Below are positions 9,995 to 47,313 of a DNA stretch of 64,000 nt, piece by piece. The DNA lies in NCBI RefSeq assembly GCF_009017275.1, contig NZ_WBZC01000024.1, positions 1-64,000 on the forward strand, in the 5' to 3' direction. Position numbers and translations under genes: made by a program. Within the stretch, counting starts at the first letter, position 1; each line of letters starts with the position of its first letter. Below the pieces are notes generated by a model. That model ran no database searches. It saw only the letters and a list, made by a program, of their open reading frames with translations, and was not told the origin of the DNA. This stretch comes from Alkaliphilus pronyensis (GTDB lineage Bacteria > Bacillota > Clostridia > Peptostreptococcales > Natronincolaceae).

Positions 9995-11182
9995 TTATAA
10001 TATTCTCATGTCTTCTCCAACCTTCTTAAATACTTCTACTGCTCTATCTAGCTGTTCCTTTGTATGTCCTGCTGTAACCATACATCTTACACGTCCTGTA
10101 CCTTTAGGTACTGTAGGGAATACTATTCCAGAAACAAACACTCCCTTATCGAATAGCTTTTTGCTGAACTCCATAGTTTTCGCTTCTTCTCCAATAATAA
10201 CTGGAGTAATTGGAGTTTCGCTCTTACCTATATCAAAGCCTAGCTTGCTGATTTTTTCTTTAAAGTATTTAGCATTATCCCATAGCTTATCTGTATATTC
10301 TGTGGTGCTCATTAATATTCTAACGGCCTCCATTATTGAGCCTACTGCAGCTGGTGGTAATGAGGTGCTGAATAATAAAGGTCTACCTCTATGACTTAAC
10401 CAGTCCCTCATTGTTTCGCTTCCTGCAACATATCCTCCTATAACTCCTATTGCCTTTGAAAGTGTTCCAATAGTAAAGTCTACTCTTCCATGAAGACCAA
10501 AATGATCAACTGTACCACGTCCACTTTCTCCCAACACTCCAGATCCGTGGGCATCATCAACATATGTCATTGCCCCATACTTTTCTGCTAGCTTAACTAT
10601 ATCAGGAAGAGGTGCAATGTCACCATCCATACTAAAAACTCCATCTGTTATAATAAGTACATTTCTATAGTTGTCACGCTTTTCCTTTAAAACCTCTTCT
10701 AGGTGATTCATGTCTGCATGTTTAAATACTGTTTTATCTGCTCTACTTAAGCGAGCTCCATCTATAATACTTGCATGATTTAATTCATCAGAAATTATAA
10801 GGTCGCCCTTTTCTGTTACTGCTTGAATGGTACCGGCATTACAATTGAATCCCGATTGGAAAACCATAACTGCTTCTTCACGTTTAAATTCAGCTAAAAG
10901 CTTTTCCATGTCTTCGTGAATATCCATATTTCCTATTATGGTACGAACAGCACCAGCACCTACTCCATACTTTTCAACAGCTTCTATTGCTGCTTTTTTT
11001 AGCCTTGGATGACTTGCGAACCCTAAGTAGTTATTGGAGGATAGGTTTATAACCCTTTTTCCATTTAAAGTTACCTCCGACTCATTGGCACCCTCTAAAA
11101 CTGGCAGCTTTCGATAAACACCATCATTCTTTAATTCTTGAATTTTTTCCTTAAGAAAGCTTAATTCATGTATGCTTGACAT
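9995..11182 (-). CDS. kbl: Glycine C-acetyltransferase (2-amino-3-ketobutyrate CoA ligase)
   Basis: This is a PLP enzyme that cleaves 2-amino-3-ketobutyrate with CoA to glycine and acetyl-CoA, the second step of threonine breakdown. The 395 residues carry the alpha-oxoamine synthase signatures: [15 protein letters not shown] near 209 and the PLP lysine K243 in [15 protein letters not shown]. Length and spacing match E. coli Kbl. AGGAGG precedes the ATG. The gene follows tdh by 77 bp, and together they complete the pathway. Related acyl-CoA synthases (BioF) share the fold; the tdh neighbour decides the call. Confidence 0.95.
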
Positions 11183-40998: not shown

Positions 40999-42099
40999 CT
41001 ATATTTGTGACCTTACTCTAATAGTCAGATAAAGCAATATGGGTATTGGTGCAAATAGGGGTATTGATAGTAAAAAATAAGGAACAGTGGATGTAAGTAT
41101 GAAATCGAATCTAGGAACAAATAATGGCATAGAAACACCACAAAGCAAACCAATTGGCAGGGCAAATGTTTTAACATCCTTTATGTCAAAAAATTCACTT
41201 GTAATTTCGCACATTGCATAATAGGTTAATATAAATTTCATAAAGGTCACGCAATAGAATATAGCAAGAAACAGGGCATCAAGTCTTTCAATAACATCTC
41301 CCAGTTCAATCAATCGAATAGCCGAAAAAGGAGGAAAGGTGCGTGTTATTAAAGTAGCCTCATCGAAGGCAGCTATAGATGCAATAGATCTGAGGGTAAG
41401 CAAAATGGTGGCAGTAAGAATCGAAAAACACATGTACTTAAGTAGCTTACTTTTACTACTATTTTTTAATGAAATATTTTTATATAAAAATACTATAGGC
41501 AATATTTGAGCATATGGAAAATTCATATTAGGAATTGCTCCTAGAAATACTGGTCTAAATCCTTCAGCCATTATTGGCGTAATATTTAAAAAATCCAGCT
41601 TAGGAATAAGCAATATAAATAAGCCACAAAACACAATTACGGTTGCAGGTATAAGTAGCTCTATTAATCTTGCAATAGTCTCTAGCCCTAGCTTTACTGC
41701 ATAAATTGCAGGTACAATAAAAAATATTATAAAAATGGAGCCAGGAGTCTCTGGCATGGTTATTTCTCCAAAGTAATAAACATCAGATATTATTAAGGTG
41801 GCTAGGAAATAAAAAAATAAAAAATAATAGATATTTACTATGGCTCCTAAAAACACTCCCCAGTTGTTTTTTATTATTTTAGTCATTGAGTGGTCTTGGT
41901 ATTGGCTTTGTGGCAGGTAATGACTTAAAACTACTATATAAGCAACAATAGATGCAAATATATTAGAAATCCACACATCATGACCTGCTTCGTTTACACC
42001 AGGTAAATAAATAATAATTGCACCACCTAATTGTGCTAAGATTATCAGCAAAAACTGATATAGAGATATTTTAACTGAACTATTTTCACTAATAGACAT
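40999..42099 (-). CDS. Spore germination permease, GerB subunit (receptor 2)
   Basis: A 366-residue GerAB/ArcD/ProY family protein with about ten membrane helices (KISLYQFLLIILAQLGGAIIIYLPGV at the N-terminus). It is transcribed divergently from the gerA-gerC pair at 42178-44966, with 78 bp between them, and completes a second germinant receptor. It ends near the promoter of the metal repressor. Confidence 0.9.
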   Translation of the reverse strand: MSISENSSVKISLYQFLLIILAQLGGAIIIYLPGVNEAGHDVWISNIFASIVAYIVVLSHYLPQSQYQDHSMTKIIKNNWGVFLGAIVNIYYFLFFYFLATLIISDVYYFGEITMPETPGSIFIIFFIVPAIYAVKLGLETIARLIELLIPATVIVFCGLFILLIPKLDFLNITPIMAEGFRPVFLGAIPNMNFPYAQILPIVFLYKNISLKNSSKSKLLKYMCFSILTATILLTLRSIASIAAFDEATLITRTFPPFSAIRLIELGDVIERLDALFLAIFYCVTFMKFILTYYAMCEITSEFFDIKDVKTFALPIGLLCGVSMPLFVPRFDFILTSTVPYFLLSIPLFAPIPILLYLTIRVRSQI

Positions 42100-42177: not shown

Positions 42178-43818
42178 GTGATTATTATTAAGAAAAATCG
42201 TAATAAGCTAAAGAAGCCACAGAAGCTTTCTAATATAGAGGACAGAAAAGAAGAAGTAAGAATTTTTGATGATAATATGACTCAGTTTACCCACCAGCTT
42301 CAGGCAAATATTAATATTATTAATGAGTACTTAGGAGAAAATGTGGACTTAGCATGTAGATATATAGATATAAACACCATACCAATAACTAGGGCTGCTA
42401 TAATTTTCATTAGGAGTATTGCCGATACCCAGAAGCTTGAAGCTACAGTAATAGAGCCTCTTGCCCACAATATCCTTCAAAGCTTAAAAAAAGACAGCTA
42501 TGATGACTATTCTAAAACAGCCGATGCTGTTAAGGACTTAGTTACTAATAGTGAAGTTGAAGGCATATTTGATGTTAATACCTCTATTGACGCCCTTTTG
42601 AAGGGTAATGGTATTTTGTTTATAGATGATAATCCTATTGCATTTAAAATAGGCATAGTTAAGGAAAGCGAAAAAAAATATGCTGATGCAAAAACAGAGA
42701 GGGTAATAATGGGGCCTCAGGAGGCCTTTGTTGAGGATATAGAGGCCTTTGTTGAGGATATAAACGAAAACACATTTATGCTGAGAAAGAAAATAAATTC
42801 ACCCCATTTCATAGTTAAGGAGATTATTATTGGAAGACATTCTAAAACAAAGGTTAGAATAGCTTATTTAGATAATTTAGTTAAATCCTCCATTGTTGAT
42901 GAGGTTTTTTTCAGATTAGAAAAGATTGATGTAGATGGAATTATGGGGTCATCTTCTGTATCAGAGTATATTTCCGATTCACCAGCAAGCCTTTTCCCAA
43001 CAATTTTTAGTACTGAAAGGCCCGATAGAATACAAGCTATGCTTTTAGAGGGTAGGGTTGCTATAATAAGTGATGGATCTCCTATAGCTTTAGTGGTGCC
43101 TTGTGTTGCAGGAGATTTTTTTTCTACTCCAGAGGATTATTATTTAAATTTTTATTTTACCTCCTTCAACAGATTACTAGGTTATATAGGGGCAATTTTT
43201 GTAATGTTTGCCCCATCAATATACATAGCCTTTACCACCTATCATCAAGAATTGCTTCCCACCAGCTTAGCCCTTACTATCTCAGGTACAAGACTAGGTG
43301 TACCTTACCCTGCTTTTCTTGAGGCTCTACTTATGGAGATATCCTTTGAAGCCCTTAGAGAAGCAGGAACTCGGTTACCTATCCACGCAGGACAGGCAGT
43401 TAGCATTGTTGGTGCCCTAATAATTGGTCAATCTGCTGTTGAAGCTGGTCTAGTTTCACCAACAGTAATAATTGTAGTTGCCTTTACTGCAATCTTTTCT
43501 CTTGCTATGCCCTTTAATAATTTTTCAATGGCTTTAAGATTAACTAGGTTTTTAAATATGACCTTAGCAGCCATTCTTGGTATTTACGGTATTATGACAG
43601 GTGCTCTCATTATTTTATTAACTCTATTATCCTTAAGAGCCTTTGGTACCCCCTTTATGCTGCCCTTTAGTCCCTTAAACCTACAGGATTTAAAGGACTG
43701 GGTATTAAGGTTTCCTCAATGGGCAATTACAAAGAGATCATCATATTTTTCTATAAACCCTCAAAAAAAAGCAGACAACCTAAAGCCAACACCAAGTGAC
43801 GAAGGGATGAAAAAATGA
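42178..43818 (+). CDS. Spore germination protein, GerA subunit (receptor 2)
   Basis: A 546-residue GerA-family protein: a cytoplasmic N-terminal domain (to about 300) and about five C-terminal helices (AGTRLPIHAGQAVSIVGALIIGQSAV). It carries SLFPTIFSTERPDRIQAMLLEGRV as in receptor 1. The conserved GPQEAFVEDINENTFMLR region contains a perfect 7-residue duplication (EAFVEDI twice). The start is GTG at 42178 with GGAAGGAA very close by; no ATG occurs before codon 34. Its stop overlaps gerC by 4 bp. Confidence 0.9.
   Translation: MIIIKKNRNKLKKPQKLSNIEDRKEEVRIFDDNMTQFTHQLQANINIINEYLGENVDLACRYIDINTIPITRAAIIFIRSIADTQKLEATVIEPLAHNILQSLKKDSYDDYSKTADAVKDLVTNSEVEGIFDVNTSIDALLKGNGILFIDDNPIAFKIGIVKESEKKYADAKTERVIMGPQEAFVEDIEAFVEDINENTFMLRKKINSPHFIVKEIIIGRHSKTKVRIAYLDNLVKSSIVDEVFFRLEKIDVDGIMGSSSVSEYISDSPASLFPTIFSTERPDRIQAMLLEGRVAIISDGSPIALVVPCVAGDFFSTPEDYYLNFYFTSFNRLLGYIGAIFVMFAPSIYIAFTTYHQELLPTSLALTISGTRLGVPYPAFLEALLMEISFEALREAGTRLPIHAGQAVSIVGALIIGQSAVEAGLVSPTVIIVVAFTAIFSLAMPFNNFSMALRLTRFLNMTLAAILGIYGIMTGALIILLTLLSLRAFGTPFMLPFSPLNLQDLKDWVLRFPQWAITKRSSYFSINPQKKADNLKPTPSDEGMKK
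42721..42762 (+). repeat. Exact 21-bp tandem duplication inside gerA (receptor 2)
   Basis: Positions 42721-42741 and 42742-42762 are identical over 21 bases, encoding EAFVEDI twice in frame. Receptor 1 has the segment once, as do GerA proteins in general as I recall them. Confidence 0.95.
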
Positions 43819-44966
43819 AAAAAAAGCTTATACTATTAACAATGCTATTTATCGTTGTCTTTACCACCTCATGCTGGAGCAGAAGAGAAATTGAGGATTT
43901 AGGCTTTGTAATGGGCTTAGGAGTATCAAAAACCGAGGATGGCTTTTATAGAGTTGTGGCACAGCTGGCAAATCCTAACTATATAGTAGCTGAAAGCCCA
44001 GAGCCAACCTCTATATATACTATTATGAAGGCTGAAGGCCTTACTGTTTTTGATGCCCTTAGAAACTTATCAAAGATAGGTAAGAGAAGATTATATATTG
44101 CCCATCTTTCAACAATTGTAATACATGAGGATGTTGCAAAGGAGGGTCTTCGTAAAATAATGAGTCTATTTGTACAGGATATGGAGCTTAGGCTGGCATC
44201 AAATATTCTCATTAGCAGAGTTCCCCCTGAGGAAATATTCGATACACCCAATAGAATCGCTGCAACTCCTGCAGTTGCCCTAGAAATAATAGCCGATAAT
44301 TATGGAGCCAATTCAAAAATATATGTTTCTGATTTGCTGAAGGCAGTAGATGCAGCCAGTAATCCATCTATGAATTATGTTACTGCCCTTGTGGAAAAGC
44401 TATCACCACCAACTAAAAATGAATTCCCTCAATTAATTTTAAGCAAAATAGCTGTATTTAAAAACGATAAACTGGCAGGGTATTTAGACCATGAGGATGG
44501 ACAAGCCTATAACTTAATAACAAATAACTTTCAAATTGGTTTGATTGTGTTTGAGACTAAAGATGGCTCCGATAAAATCGTAATAGAGGTTTTAAATTCA
44601 GAGGCTAAAATTACCCCTAAGTTCATTAATAATCAGGTTCATTTTGATGTTAAGCTAGAGGTTGAAGGTAGTATTGCTGAACGTATGCCTTTACATCTGA
44701 AATACTATCAAATAGATTTTAATGAAATACAGGAGCAGTTTGATATAGTTTTAAAGGATAAGCTTAAAAGGGCTTTTTTTATAGCACAGCAGCACTATAA
44801 AATTGATTATTTCAATTTTTATAAGTACTTCTACAGAGAATATCCAAAGGAGTTTAAGGATATGATGGATAATTGGAATAATGTATTCTCAAATGCAAAA
44901 ATCAATATAGAAATAAATAGTAAAATAGAGCATACAGCCCTTAATAAAAACAGAGGGAGGATATAA
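43815..44966 (+). CDS. Spore germination lipoprotein, GerC subunit (receptor 2)
   Basis: A 383-residue Ger(x)C family protein with a signal peptide ending in the lipobox FTTSC (about C20), then WSRREIEDLGFVMGLGVSKTEDGFYRVVAQLANP. The C-terminal germination domain spans about 200-370. It overlaps gerA by ATGA and is followed by a small membrane-protein gene. Confidence 0.92.
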   Translation: MKKKLILLTMLFIVVFTTSCWSRREIEDLGFVMGLGVSKTEDGFYRVVAQLANPNYIVAESPEPTSIYTIMKAEGLTVFDALRNLSKIGKRRLYIAHLSTIVIHEDVAKEGLRKIMSLFVQDMELRLASNILISRVPPEEIFDTPNRIAATPAVALEIIADNYGANSKIYVSDLLKAVDAASNPSMNYVTALVEKLSPPTKNEFPQLILSKIAVFKNDKLAGYLDHEDGQAYNLITNNFQIGLIVFETKDGSDKIVIEVLNSEAKITPKFINNQVHFDVKLEVEGSIAERMPLHLKYYQIDFNEIQEQFDIVLKDKLKRAFFIAQQHYKIDYFNFYKYFYREYPKEFKDMMDNWNNVFSNAKINIEINSKIEHTALNKNRGRI

Positions 44967-44972
44967 AACATA

Positions 44973-45155
44973 GTGGATGCCGTAATCTTTGTAGTTACTG
45001 TTGTAGCTTTGTTAATAGATTACAATAGGATAGAAAATAAAAAGAAGGAAGTAAAATATATTTATATTATCATCGTGTTAGCTGCTGGTGTTATTGCTTT
45101 TGCAGAAAGACAAGACTTTGTTCGAGAAATGCTATTTGAAAATCTAATTGAATAG
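44973..45155 (+). CDS. Small membrane protein of the germination operon
   Basis: A 60-residue protein with two hydrophobic stretches (about 2-16 and 27-44) separated by a charged loop (DYNRIENKKKEVKY). It starts with GTG 6 bp after gerC; GGGAGG lies about 12 bases upstream, a little far. I do not recognise a family. Position suggests it is part of receptor 2, perhaps like the small D subunits of some ger operons. Confidence 0.55.
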   Translation: MDAVIFVVTVVALLIDYNRIENKKKEVKYIYIIIVLAAGVIAFAERQDFVREMLFENLIE

Positions 45156-45264
45156 TTATATTTTTCTGGAGTTAAAAAACTATATATAATAATGAAATAG
45201 GATACACAACCACTCCCTTTAATACATATAGATAAATATAGTATAAAAGGAATGGAGTGATTTT

Positions 45265-45714
45265 ATGGGTGTATTTACCTCTGAGGCTAGCTTGATTTCT
45301 TCTATAATACGTATGCTTATAATAATTATAATACCTATTTTTTTACTCTACTTTATTTCACTACTAAATAAATATGTTAAAGAAATAAATAGAGAAATAG
45401 AGAATTATCGCTATACAAAGCAGGAAAAAATGCTGGAAATGATTATTCAAACTGTTGTTAATTCCGTTTGTCAAACTTATTTAGATGATATTTATAGACA
45501 AAATAGTAAAATAACCGAAGAAGAAGAATTAATAGCCTACAATATGATTAAAGAAAAGTCTATTAAAATCATAAGTGAAGCAGCTGCAGTAGAGCTGGCA
45601 GATAAATATAATAATCTTGATAAATGGCTGGAGAATAAAATCTATTACTACCTATCCATTGAAATATCTTCTTTGCAATCCAGTGATGGCTGTAATGGGG
45701 AGGTATTTGCATGA
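45265..45714 (+). CDS. Holin-like protein 1 (phage LL-H type)
   Basis: A 149-residue protein with one N-terminal membrane helix (about 14-35) and a charged helical body: TVVNSVCQTYLDDIYRQNSKITEEEE, ending NLDKWLENKIYYYLS. This matches the phage holin LL-H family layout (one helix, then a segment ending in a D-x-W-x-x-x-I motif). It shares that ending with the gene at 46915. Its stop overlaps the amidase start by 4 bp. No other phage genes are near. The role may be release of, or access for, the adjacent wall hydrolase. Confidence 0.72.
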   Translation: MGVFTSEASLISSIIRMLIIIIIPIFLLYFISLLNKYVKEINREIENYRYTKQEKMLEMIIQTVVNSVCQTYLDDIYRQNSKITEEEELIAYNMIKEKSIKIISEAAAVELADKYNNLDKWLENKIYYYLSIEISSLQSSDGCNGEVFA

Positions 45715-46922
45715 AAATAATAATAGATTCTGGCCACGGAGGAAAAGAATCTGGTGCCATAGCATTTAATACAAAGGAAAAGGACTTGAATATTATTTTT
45801 GCTAGCCTATTGGCTGATGAGCTTGAGGGACTAAAGCATTCTGTCGATAGATCCTTGATTAATGATAAATATTATTCCCCCAATGAGTTAGCTGATTATA
45901 TAAATGGCTCTGGTGCTTCAATATGTGTTTCCTGTCATAACAATGCATTTAATGGTAGTGTTAGAGGCTTTGAGGTAATCCATAGTATTCATTCTAATGG
46001 TCAGCTGGCAAAGCTTGTTTTAGATGAGGTTAAAAAAACCAATTTTAAGGTAAGACGGGCATTTAGTAGAAAAAGTACTGTTCCTTCCAATGCTGGAGAA
46101 AACTACTATTATATAATTAGACTAACATATCCTATGGTGGAAACTATAATAGTTGAGTTCGGATTTATGGATAATTATGAAGACTTTCAAGCCCTTAATA
46201 ATCCTGAATGGCAAAGGATGCTCACTAGCGGAGTTGCAAAGGGTATAAGTAGGTATATAGCTTTAAACAGTAAAACAAGTATTATAGGTGAATCTATATT
46301 ATCTGCCCTCCAGTTAAAAAGGGCCTTAAGGGCTGTTAATAAAAATGTTGATACAGAAATTGTGGATATATACTACCAGCTATCTAAAATATATGGTATT
46401 AAGGCAGATTTAGCCTTTATTCAATCTATTTTTGAAGCAAACTGGCTTAGATTTACTGGTGTAGTGAAACCCCGTCAAAATAATTTTTGTGGTCTTGGAG
46501 CTACTGGTCCCGATAATCCTGGTCTATCCTTTCCTACAATGGAAATAGGGGTTGAGGCACATTTACAGCACTTATTTGCTTATGCTTCAAAGCTTCCTCT
46601 TCCAAGTAATCGAAAGCTTTATGACTCTAGGTTTCATCTAGTGACAAGGGGTAGTGCCCCCAATTGGCAGGATCTTAACGGAAAATGGGCAGTGCCGGGT
46701 AAGGATTATGGCGAAAGGATTGTAGCCCTGCAGCAAAGAATATTAGAGAAGCCACAACCACCTCAACAACAAGACCATTGGGCTCAAAAATGTCACGATG
46801 AATTAAGGGAGGCAGGCTTACTATATAATAATCATTCCGATTCCTTAGATGAAGCTGCCAGTAAAGGAGTTGTATTTTGCTTGATTAATCGTCTAAGAAG
46901 GGAGGTAGCTAAGAATGAGTAG
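45711..46922 (+). CDS. N-acetylmuramoyl-L-alanine amidase with glucosaminidase domain (endolysin-like)
   Basis: Residues 1-180 are a zinc amidase (Amidase_3): IIIDSGHGGKESGA, SCHNNAFNGSVRGFEVIHS and IVEFGFMDN supply the His, His and Glu. Residues about 205-345 look like a glucosaminidase domain (LAFIQSIFEANWLRFTG, then QNNFCGLGATGPDNPGLSF). A short tail beginning DHWAQKCHDELREAGL resembles endolysin tails. It lacks a signal peptide, so a holin or another route would be needed for export. It overlaps holin-like genes on both sides by 4 and 8 bp. Confidence 0.88.
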   Translation: MKIIIDSGHGGKESGAIAFNTKEKDLNIIFASLLADELEGLKHSVDRSLINDKYYSPNELADYINGSGASICVSCHNNAFNGSVRGFEVIHSIHSNGQLAKLVLDEVKKTNFKVRRAFSRKSTVPSNAGENYYYIIRLTYPMVETIIVEFGFMDNYEDFQALNNPEWQRMLTSGVAKGISRYIALNSKTSIIGESILSALQLKRALRAVNKNVDTEIVDIYYQLSKIYGIKADLAFIQSIFEANWLRFTGVVKPRQNNFCGLGATGPDNPGLSFPTMEIGVEAHLQHLFAYASKLPLPSNRKLYDSRFHLVTRGSAPNWQDLNGKWAVPGKDYGERIVALQQRILEKPQPPQQQDHWAQKCHDELREAGLLYNNHSDSLDEAASKGVVFCLINRLRREVAKNE

Positions 46923-47313
46923 CCTTCTATATATTATCTCAAATCTAATAATTATTGTATCGACGGTAATATTAATAGCCTTTGGTCTTAAACTAATTAG
47001 AAGTCTAAATAGGGAGAGTAAGCTTATAGGTAATATTGAATACACCGATGAGTTATTTAATCGTATAGATAGTATTATTTTGGTAAGTGTTATTACAGTT
47101 AGTAATACTATGGTCAACAGACTGAAGAATGAAAAAGCATTTTTTCAAAAAGAAAAGGAGGAGGCTTTTGAAGAAGCGAAAAATCGTATTGCTAATATTA
47201 TAAATACTCAAGATACCCAACACATAGGTGCCTATATAGATAATATAGATGAGTGGATTGATAATAGAATTGAATACTACGTTAGGACATTAAAAACAAG
47301 TAATTATGTTTAA
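46915..47313 (+). CDS. Holin-like protein 2 (phage LL-H type)
   Basis: A 132-residue protein with one N-terminal helix (about 5-27) and a charged body, VSNTMVNRLKNEKAFFQKEKEEAFEEAKNRI, ending NIDEWIDNRIEYYVRTLK. The ending is clearly homologous to NLDKWLENKIYYYL of holin-like protein 1, so the two are paralogues flanking the hydrolase. It overlaps the amidase stop by 8 bp. Confidence 0.72.
   Translation: MSSLLYIISNLIIIVSTVILIAFGLKLIRSLNRESKLIGNIEYTDELFNRIDSIILVSVITVSNTMVNRLKNEKAFFQKEKEEAFEEAKNRIANIINTQDTQHIGAYIDNIDEWIDNRIEYYVRTLKTSNYV

Follow-up and report, generated by a model that had tools for sequence, protein, structure and literature searches.

Introduction

In B. subtilis, the sigma-K-dependent amidases CwlC and CwlH act in mother-cell lysis (PMC517825), and B. 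thuringiensis needs CwlC for the same event (PMC9397120). In C. difficile, a part in this event was proposed for two sigma-K amidase genes, CD2184 and CD1898, the second of which forms an operon with CD1897 (PMC3789822). No holin partner is described for any of these amidases in the three papers, and the cited literature explains neither the exit of signal-less mother-cell wall hydrolases nor how lysis is timed. Type 10 secretion systems and TcdE are holin-lysin modules of phage type that the host itself operates; they serve toxin or chitinase release (PMC10847048, PMC12150058). YwcE of B. subtilis (Real et al. 2005), which we know through its citation in PMC11736430 alone, is also among the closest known systems. 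In phages, holins of PHROG family 13712, the family of the cassette's holins, stand beside an endolysin, as in Roseburia phage Shimadzu, Faecalibacterium phage FP_Lagaffe and Mu-like prophages of the order studied here.

We analyzed a three-gene holin-lysin-holin cassette in a stretch of 64,000 nucleotides from Alkaliphilus pronyensis (contig NZ_WBZC01000024.1), hereafter the window. Like CwlC, CwlH, CD1898 and CD2184, each proposed or shown to free the spore, it has an amidase and a candidate promoter of the late mother-cell type, but here the enzyme has two domains and is coupled to two holins. Like the type 10 systems and TcdE, it resembles a host-run phage module, but no cargo was found at the cassette. 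It shares with the phage cassettes a PHROG 13712 holin beside an endolysin; these differ in having a single holin of the family within a full phage and, for the Mu-like copies, in lacking sigma-K-type boxes.

Results

A three-gene unit recurs in spore-forming Clostridia

The cassette consists of three overlapping open reading frames on the same strand (Table 1), with overlaps of 4 bp (holin A/lysin) and 8 bp (lysin/holin B). In this, and in placing gerA, gerC and a small membrane gene upstream on the same strand, the first-pass annotation of the window was right, the latter by our domain search of the window. The cassette is present once in the window's own genome. A weak third "holin" match there (G000:C49) was rejected, being by our own reading of the sequence a divIC-like gene adjoining a yabQ-like gene.

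Table 1. Coordinates of the cassette, its upstream signals and the adjoining ger genes in the window
Feature	Position	Strand	Description
gerA - gerC - small two-TM gene	42178-45155	+	Neighbor outside the cassette; GerA 1.5e-151, Spore_GerAC 3.9e-37
Sigma-K-type promoter candidate	45205-45232	+	CACA 45205-45208, 16-bp spacer, CATATAGA 45225-45232; 40 bp 5' of start codon; position and boxes conserved across the seven loci
Ribosome-binding site of holin A, GGAGTG	45254-45259	+	Read from sequence; conserved in L018, L019, L020
Holin A	45265-45714	+	149 aa; PHROG 13712 match 1.9e-15
Lysin	45711-46922	+	403 aa; Amidase_3, glucosaminidase and C-terminal SLH-like repeat; no signal peptide
Holin B	46915-47313	+	132 aa; holin A paralogue; PHROG 13712 match 2.7e-14

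A search of 98 relatives yielded four further genomes with the cassette, namely G001 (same genus), G004 and G005 (same family) and G093 (same order); two more copies were found in Geosporobacter ferrireducens (L023, genome G123) and in the Clostridia MAG SKW182 (L024). The unit thus recurs in six genomes besides the window's, which represent two or more families of spore formers, so that the arrangement is not due to chance. Both holins flank the lysin in all seven. Lysin and holin B overlap by 8 bp in every genome but Geosporobacter, where the overlap measures 11 bp, or 8 bp if counted from the second Met. The distribution is patchy (4/20 genomes of the family, 6/394 of the order), and the holin A of G005 is broken by a transposase-bearing insertion. 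This insertion is flanked by a 122-bp direct repeat (96% identical; L020:8194-8315 and 10197-10318), unusually long for an IS target duplication. In G068, which belongs to the same order and probably represents C. difficile, no holin adjoins either of two lone leaderless amidases, one of which has a promoter pattern similar to that described below.

The lysin and the paired holins

The lysin carries Amidase_3 (3.3e-33) and Glucosaminidase (1.1e-7) domains. Its N terminus, MKIIIDSGHGG, is already the start of the catalytic fold, hence the absence of a signal peptide, as had been annotated; a leaderless amidase domain is also what a sigma-K mother-cell lysis hydrolase would show. By our own reading of the sequence, the C terminus holds one copy of an SLH-like repeat in the window and three in SKW182. 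Across the cassette genomes, the lysins are 61-70% identical to that of the window, and residues H9, E23, H76, E149 and E242 are invariant in all seven. We take H9, E23 and H76 to be zinc ligands, E149 to be catalytic and E242 to belong to the glucosaminidase activity.

Holin A and holin B have one N-terminal membrane helix each. They are 28% identical in the window (E value, 4e-5), and reciprocal profile matches in all seven genomes identify them as paralogues. The PHROG 13712 "holin" profile matches all seven holin A proteins (best, 1e-29) and the window's holin B over most of their length, suggesting that the small outer proteins act as holins. The description of the pair as paralogous LL-H-type holins therefore stands as to paralogy and holin family; the LL-H label corresponds to a subthreshold PF09682 (Holin_LLH) match of holin A, at 17.7 bits against a cutoff of 24.9, and only one of the seven members matches this profile at all. 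Pfam also matched holin B to OFeT_1 or GerPC, and holin A to anoctamin and others, but these scores too were below cutoff and the assignments were rejected. Structure models, built from shallow alignments of three sequences, are all-helical for both proteins, with a long N-terminal helix and a helical C-terminal part (pLDDT, 79.9 for holin A and 79.4 for holin B); in holin A, a long helical remainder follows the membrane helix. A Foldseek comparison with BFVD gave no significant match (best E value, 0.009; an LL-H holin at 0.04).

In two trees, holin B of the seven genomes forms one clade with 98-100% support. The trees differ on holin A, which one of them places among phage holins and the other in a weakly supported group of its own; holin B may thus have arisen by duplication of holin A or have come from a second phage. 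SKW182 is basal among both A and B, as would be expected from a single old assembly of the unit. The window's holins sit on long branches.

Phage relatives and the absence of a surrounding prophage

The locus shows the core of a phage lysis cassette, phage-holin-family membrane proteins beside a leaderless peptidoglycan hydrolase. Holin A of SKW182 resembles the single holins of phages Shimadzu (34% identity; 3e-16) and FP_Lagaffe (34%; 9e-9), each encoded beside an endolysin. The holin family is present in 11 of the 394 genomes of the order, six of them being the cassette genomes, in which the holins are paired. By our own reading, five single copies (the second locus of G004, and G012, G025, G070 and G336) are surrounded by Mu-like head and transposase genes, the one holin lying close to a gene of amidase type; a sixth, in G251, was too fragmentary to classify. 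In G004:C1, what is probably a Mu-like element in three copies encodes a 226-aa sigma factor related to the spore sigma-K (TIGR02846, 6e-36, the scores being identical); a holin of the cassette's family lies about 5 kb away (coordinates 428247, 2028112, 4503562 and 433659, 2033524, 4498330; L181).

None of the seven cassettes lies in a phage or prophage. Inspection of their neighborhoods revealed no phage structural genes beside any copy; around the window cassette, in line with the first-pass annotation, none occurs within about 10 kb on either side, where the genes are housekeeping or transport genes. The two-holin layout was not seen in the phages or prophages inspected, and scans of IMG/VR with the lysin and both holin alignments returned no cassette. 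In G005, tandem tyrosine recombinase genes that resemble a recombinase-trio element are found 3 kb from the cassette (L020:15134-18358).

These data bear on whether the genes are merely what a dead phage left behind, with no role for the host. A cryptic remnant would fit the broken copy in G005 and the occurrence of the holin family in phages of Clostridia and in the order's Mu-like prophages. Against this, seven genomes keep the same unit although its sites are unrelated; the overlaps are nearly identical, the putative catalytic residues do not vary, the non-phage promoter candidate is conserved, and the two-holin layout is foreign to the phages and prophages inspected. Neighborhoods and conservation rule it out as the main reading, and we consider it improbable. 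The earlier proposal of a domesticated lysis module is instead supported by the presence of the unit in seven genomes, in none of them within a prophage, and by its phage-derived families.

The ger linkage is local

Only in the window and in G001, of the same genus, does the cassette adjoin ger genes. In both, a gerB-type permease gene (40999-42099 in the window) is divergent from gerA-gerC. Orthologous gerA genes of G004, G005, G093 and Geosporobacter lie elsewhere than the cassette, which has as neighbors an ABC exporter and an arginine-deiminase-like gene in G004, DUF4183/DUF11 and YheCD-type genes in G005, and CBM96/DUF6385 and glycosyltransferase or sugar-ABC genes in Geosporobacter and SKW182. 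Since the cassette is kept as a unit while its neighbors change, the ger linkage is local. Membrane genes of the CBO0543 family were seen near the G004 cassette (L019:10792-11307) and, on a plasmid of Priestia filamentosa, close to a related amidase gene that stands alone (L073:10732-11295).

The first-pass annotation had joined the cassette to the germination operon, and this does not hold: among the cassette genomes, the gene order with ger is present in the window's genus only, and the 109-bp gap between the small two-TM gene and holin A contains the cassette's own promoter-like site. No terminator was found in this gap, and its predicted RNA fold is not better than that of shuffled sequences. 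Relatives with the cassette in a complete prophage, and in no case close to ger, would have spoken against that annotation; copies in other genera do lie away from ger, but no copy is in a prophage. Comparison of the ger orthologues thus rules out the cassette as part of the ger operon. A germination function in which the lysin digests the cortex as an operon component, suggested by the position directly 3' of gerA-gerC and the small membrane gene in the window and G001, is accordingly very improbable, given the unlinked ger orthologues of four other genomes, the separate mother-cell-type promoter and the absence of any match to a cortex-lytic domain family, which also leaves the earlier suggestion of spore-cortex breakdown without support.

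The changing neighborhoods bear equally on a sporulation-timed, largely nonlytic export device of the type 10 kind, in which the lysin or another cargo would leave through the holins and reshape the wall of the mother cell or the surface of the spore. Host holin/lysin export systems such as the T10SS and TcdE exist, and some cassettes have possible spore-surface genes nearby (DUF4183/DUF11, YheCD and CBM96/DNRLRE). However, neighbors differ in every genus and no conserved one among the cassette neighborhoods offers itself as cargo, which makes this reading unlikely and leaves the toxin-like protein release proposed earlier without a candidate.

A candidate sigma-K-type promoter precedes holin A

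Start codons were fixed by aligning the proteins. The CATA nearest to holin A on its 5' side then begins 40 bp before the start codon in the window, G001 and G005, 41 bp in G004, 37 bp in G093 and Geosporobacter and 43 bp in SKW182. An AC-type box stands 15 or 16 bp upstream of it in all seven loci. The -35/-10 boxes are CACA/CATATAGA in the window, CACT/CATATACT in G001, CACA/CATATAAT in G004 and Geosporobacter, AACC/CATATTAT in G005, CACC/CATATAAT in G093 and AACA/CATAAAAT in SKW182. Six of the seven cassettes fit a strict pattern; that of the window is degenerate, its -10 box departing from CATATAAT at two positions. In 249 gene-upstream regions drawn from the loci retrieved, the strict pattern was found four times besides the cassettes, or before 4 of 243 background genes, two of these four being a yabQ-like sporulation gene and a DUF4183 gene. 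It precedes none of 10 Mu-like prophage holin and lysin genes. For 6/7 against 4/243, Fisher's test gives a P value of 5e-9 (2e-8 with close relatives merged), values that are optimistic, as the pattern was drawn after seeing the sequences.

At the C. difficile sigK promoter, sigma-K has a -35 AC and a -10 CATATAAT, while the sigma-E -35 motif is ATA (PMC3789822); the spacing of sigma-K boxes is about 15 bp in B. subtilis (PMC517825). The parts of the strict pattern agree with these sigma-K boxes and this spacing. The -10 box is common to both factors, and the cassette promoters do not have ATA at any consistent position. The boxes would be used by sigma-K and, with less likelihood, by sigma-E. 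The sigK gene is present in 6/6 genomes tested, and CACA-N16-CATATTAT is found upstream of it in five cassette genomes. As this site may be read by sigma-E, sigma-K or both, it points to mother-cell control and not to pure sigma-K control. DpaA_N, sought as a positive-control promoter gene, had no match in the cassette genomes. The sigK gene itself is intact in G000, G001 and G005 but split, in the manner of skin-like elements, into halves separated by about 4 to 8 kb in G004:C1 (2523462-2527774), G093:C61 (96312-104287) and G123:C1 (5732881-5740707).

Discussion

Our analysis indicates that the three genes are probably a captured phage lysis module, supplemented by a second holin and placed under late mother-cell (sigma-K-type) control, which lyses the mother cell to release the spore. 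The simplest function for a leaderless two-activity lysin with two holins, located outside any phage and behind a promoter of the late mother-cell type, is to lyse the mother cell and so release the spore; among the options raised earlier, mother-cell lysis is the one that the conserved promoter supports. The genes would then form a stably domesticated lysis cassette of spore-forming Clostridia. Late in sporulation, the mother-cell sigma-K RNA polymerase would transcribe it from the promoter directly before holin A, and the leaderless lysin would build up in the mother-cell cytoplasm. Holin A may then open the mother-cell membrane, holin B serving as partner or as a timing brake (antiholin). 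The lysin could thereby reach the wall and cut the stem peptide with its amidase domain and the glycan strand with its glucosaminidase domain, so that the mother cell would burst and free the finished spore. The sequences themselves show the gene content and domains, the conservation as a unit, the lack of phage genes, the phage relatives of the families and the conserved promoter-like boxes; use of the boxes by sigma-K, holin action of the small proteins and the lysis are inferred from these.

We count against this explanation the broken holin A of G005, the patchy distribution and the -10 box shared by sigma-E and sigma-K. The copy in the window could be decaying, judging from its degenerate -10 box and the long branches of its fast-evolving holins.

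More tentatively, we speculate that one ancient capture of a phage module, the addition of a second holin to give a holin/antiholin pair and a sigma-K promoter together created a developmental death switch, in which holin triggering would time mother-cell lysis as it does in phage infection. If true, this would explain how a leaderless mother-cell hydrolase reaches the wall.

Compared with the described systems, what appears to be new is the complete holin-lysin-holin unit in a mother-cell lysis role for which sigma-K amidases are already known. Run from a sigma-K-type promoter, such a unit would answer the questions of hydrolase exit and lysis timing in a concrete way that can be tested; one member of the cassette group, Geosporobacter ferrireducens IRF9, is a named strain whose genome is complete. 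If our reading is correct, these would be phage lysis genes serving cell development, and not virus or toxin release.
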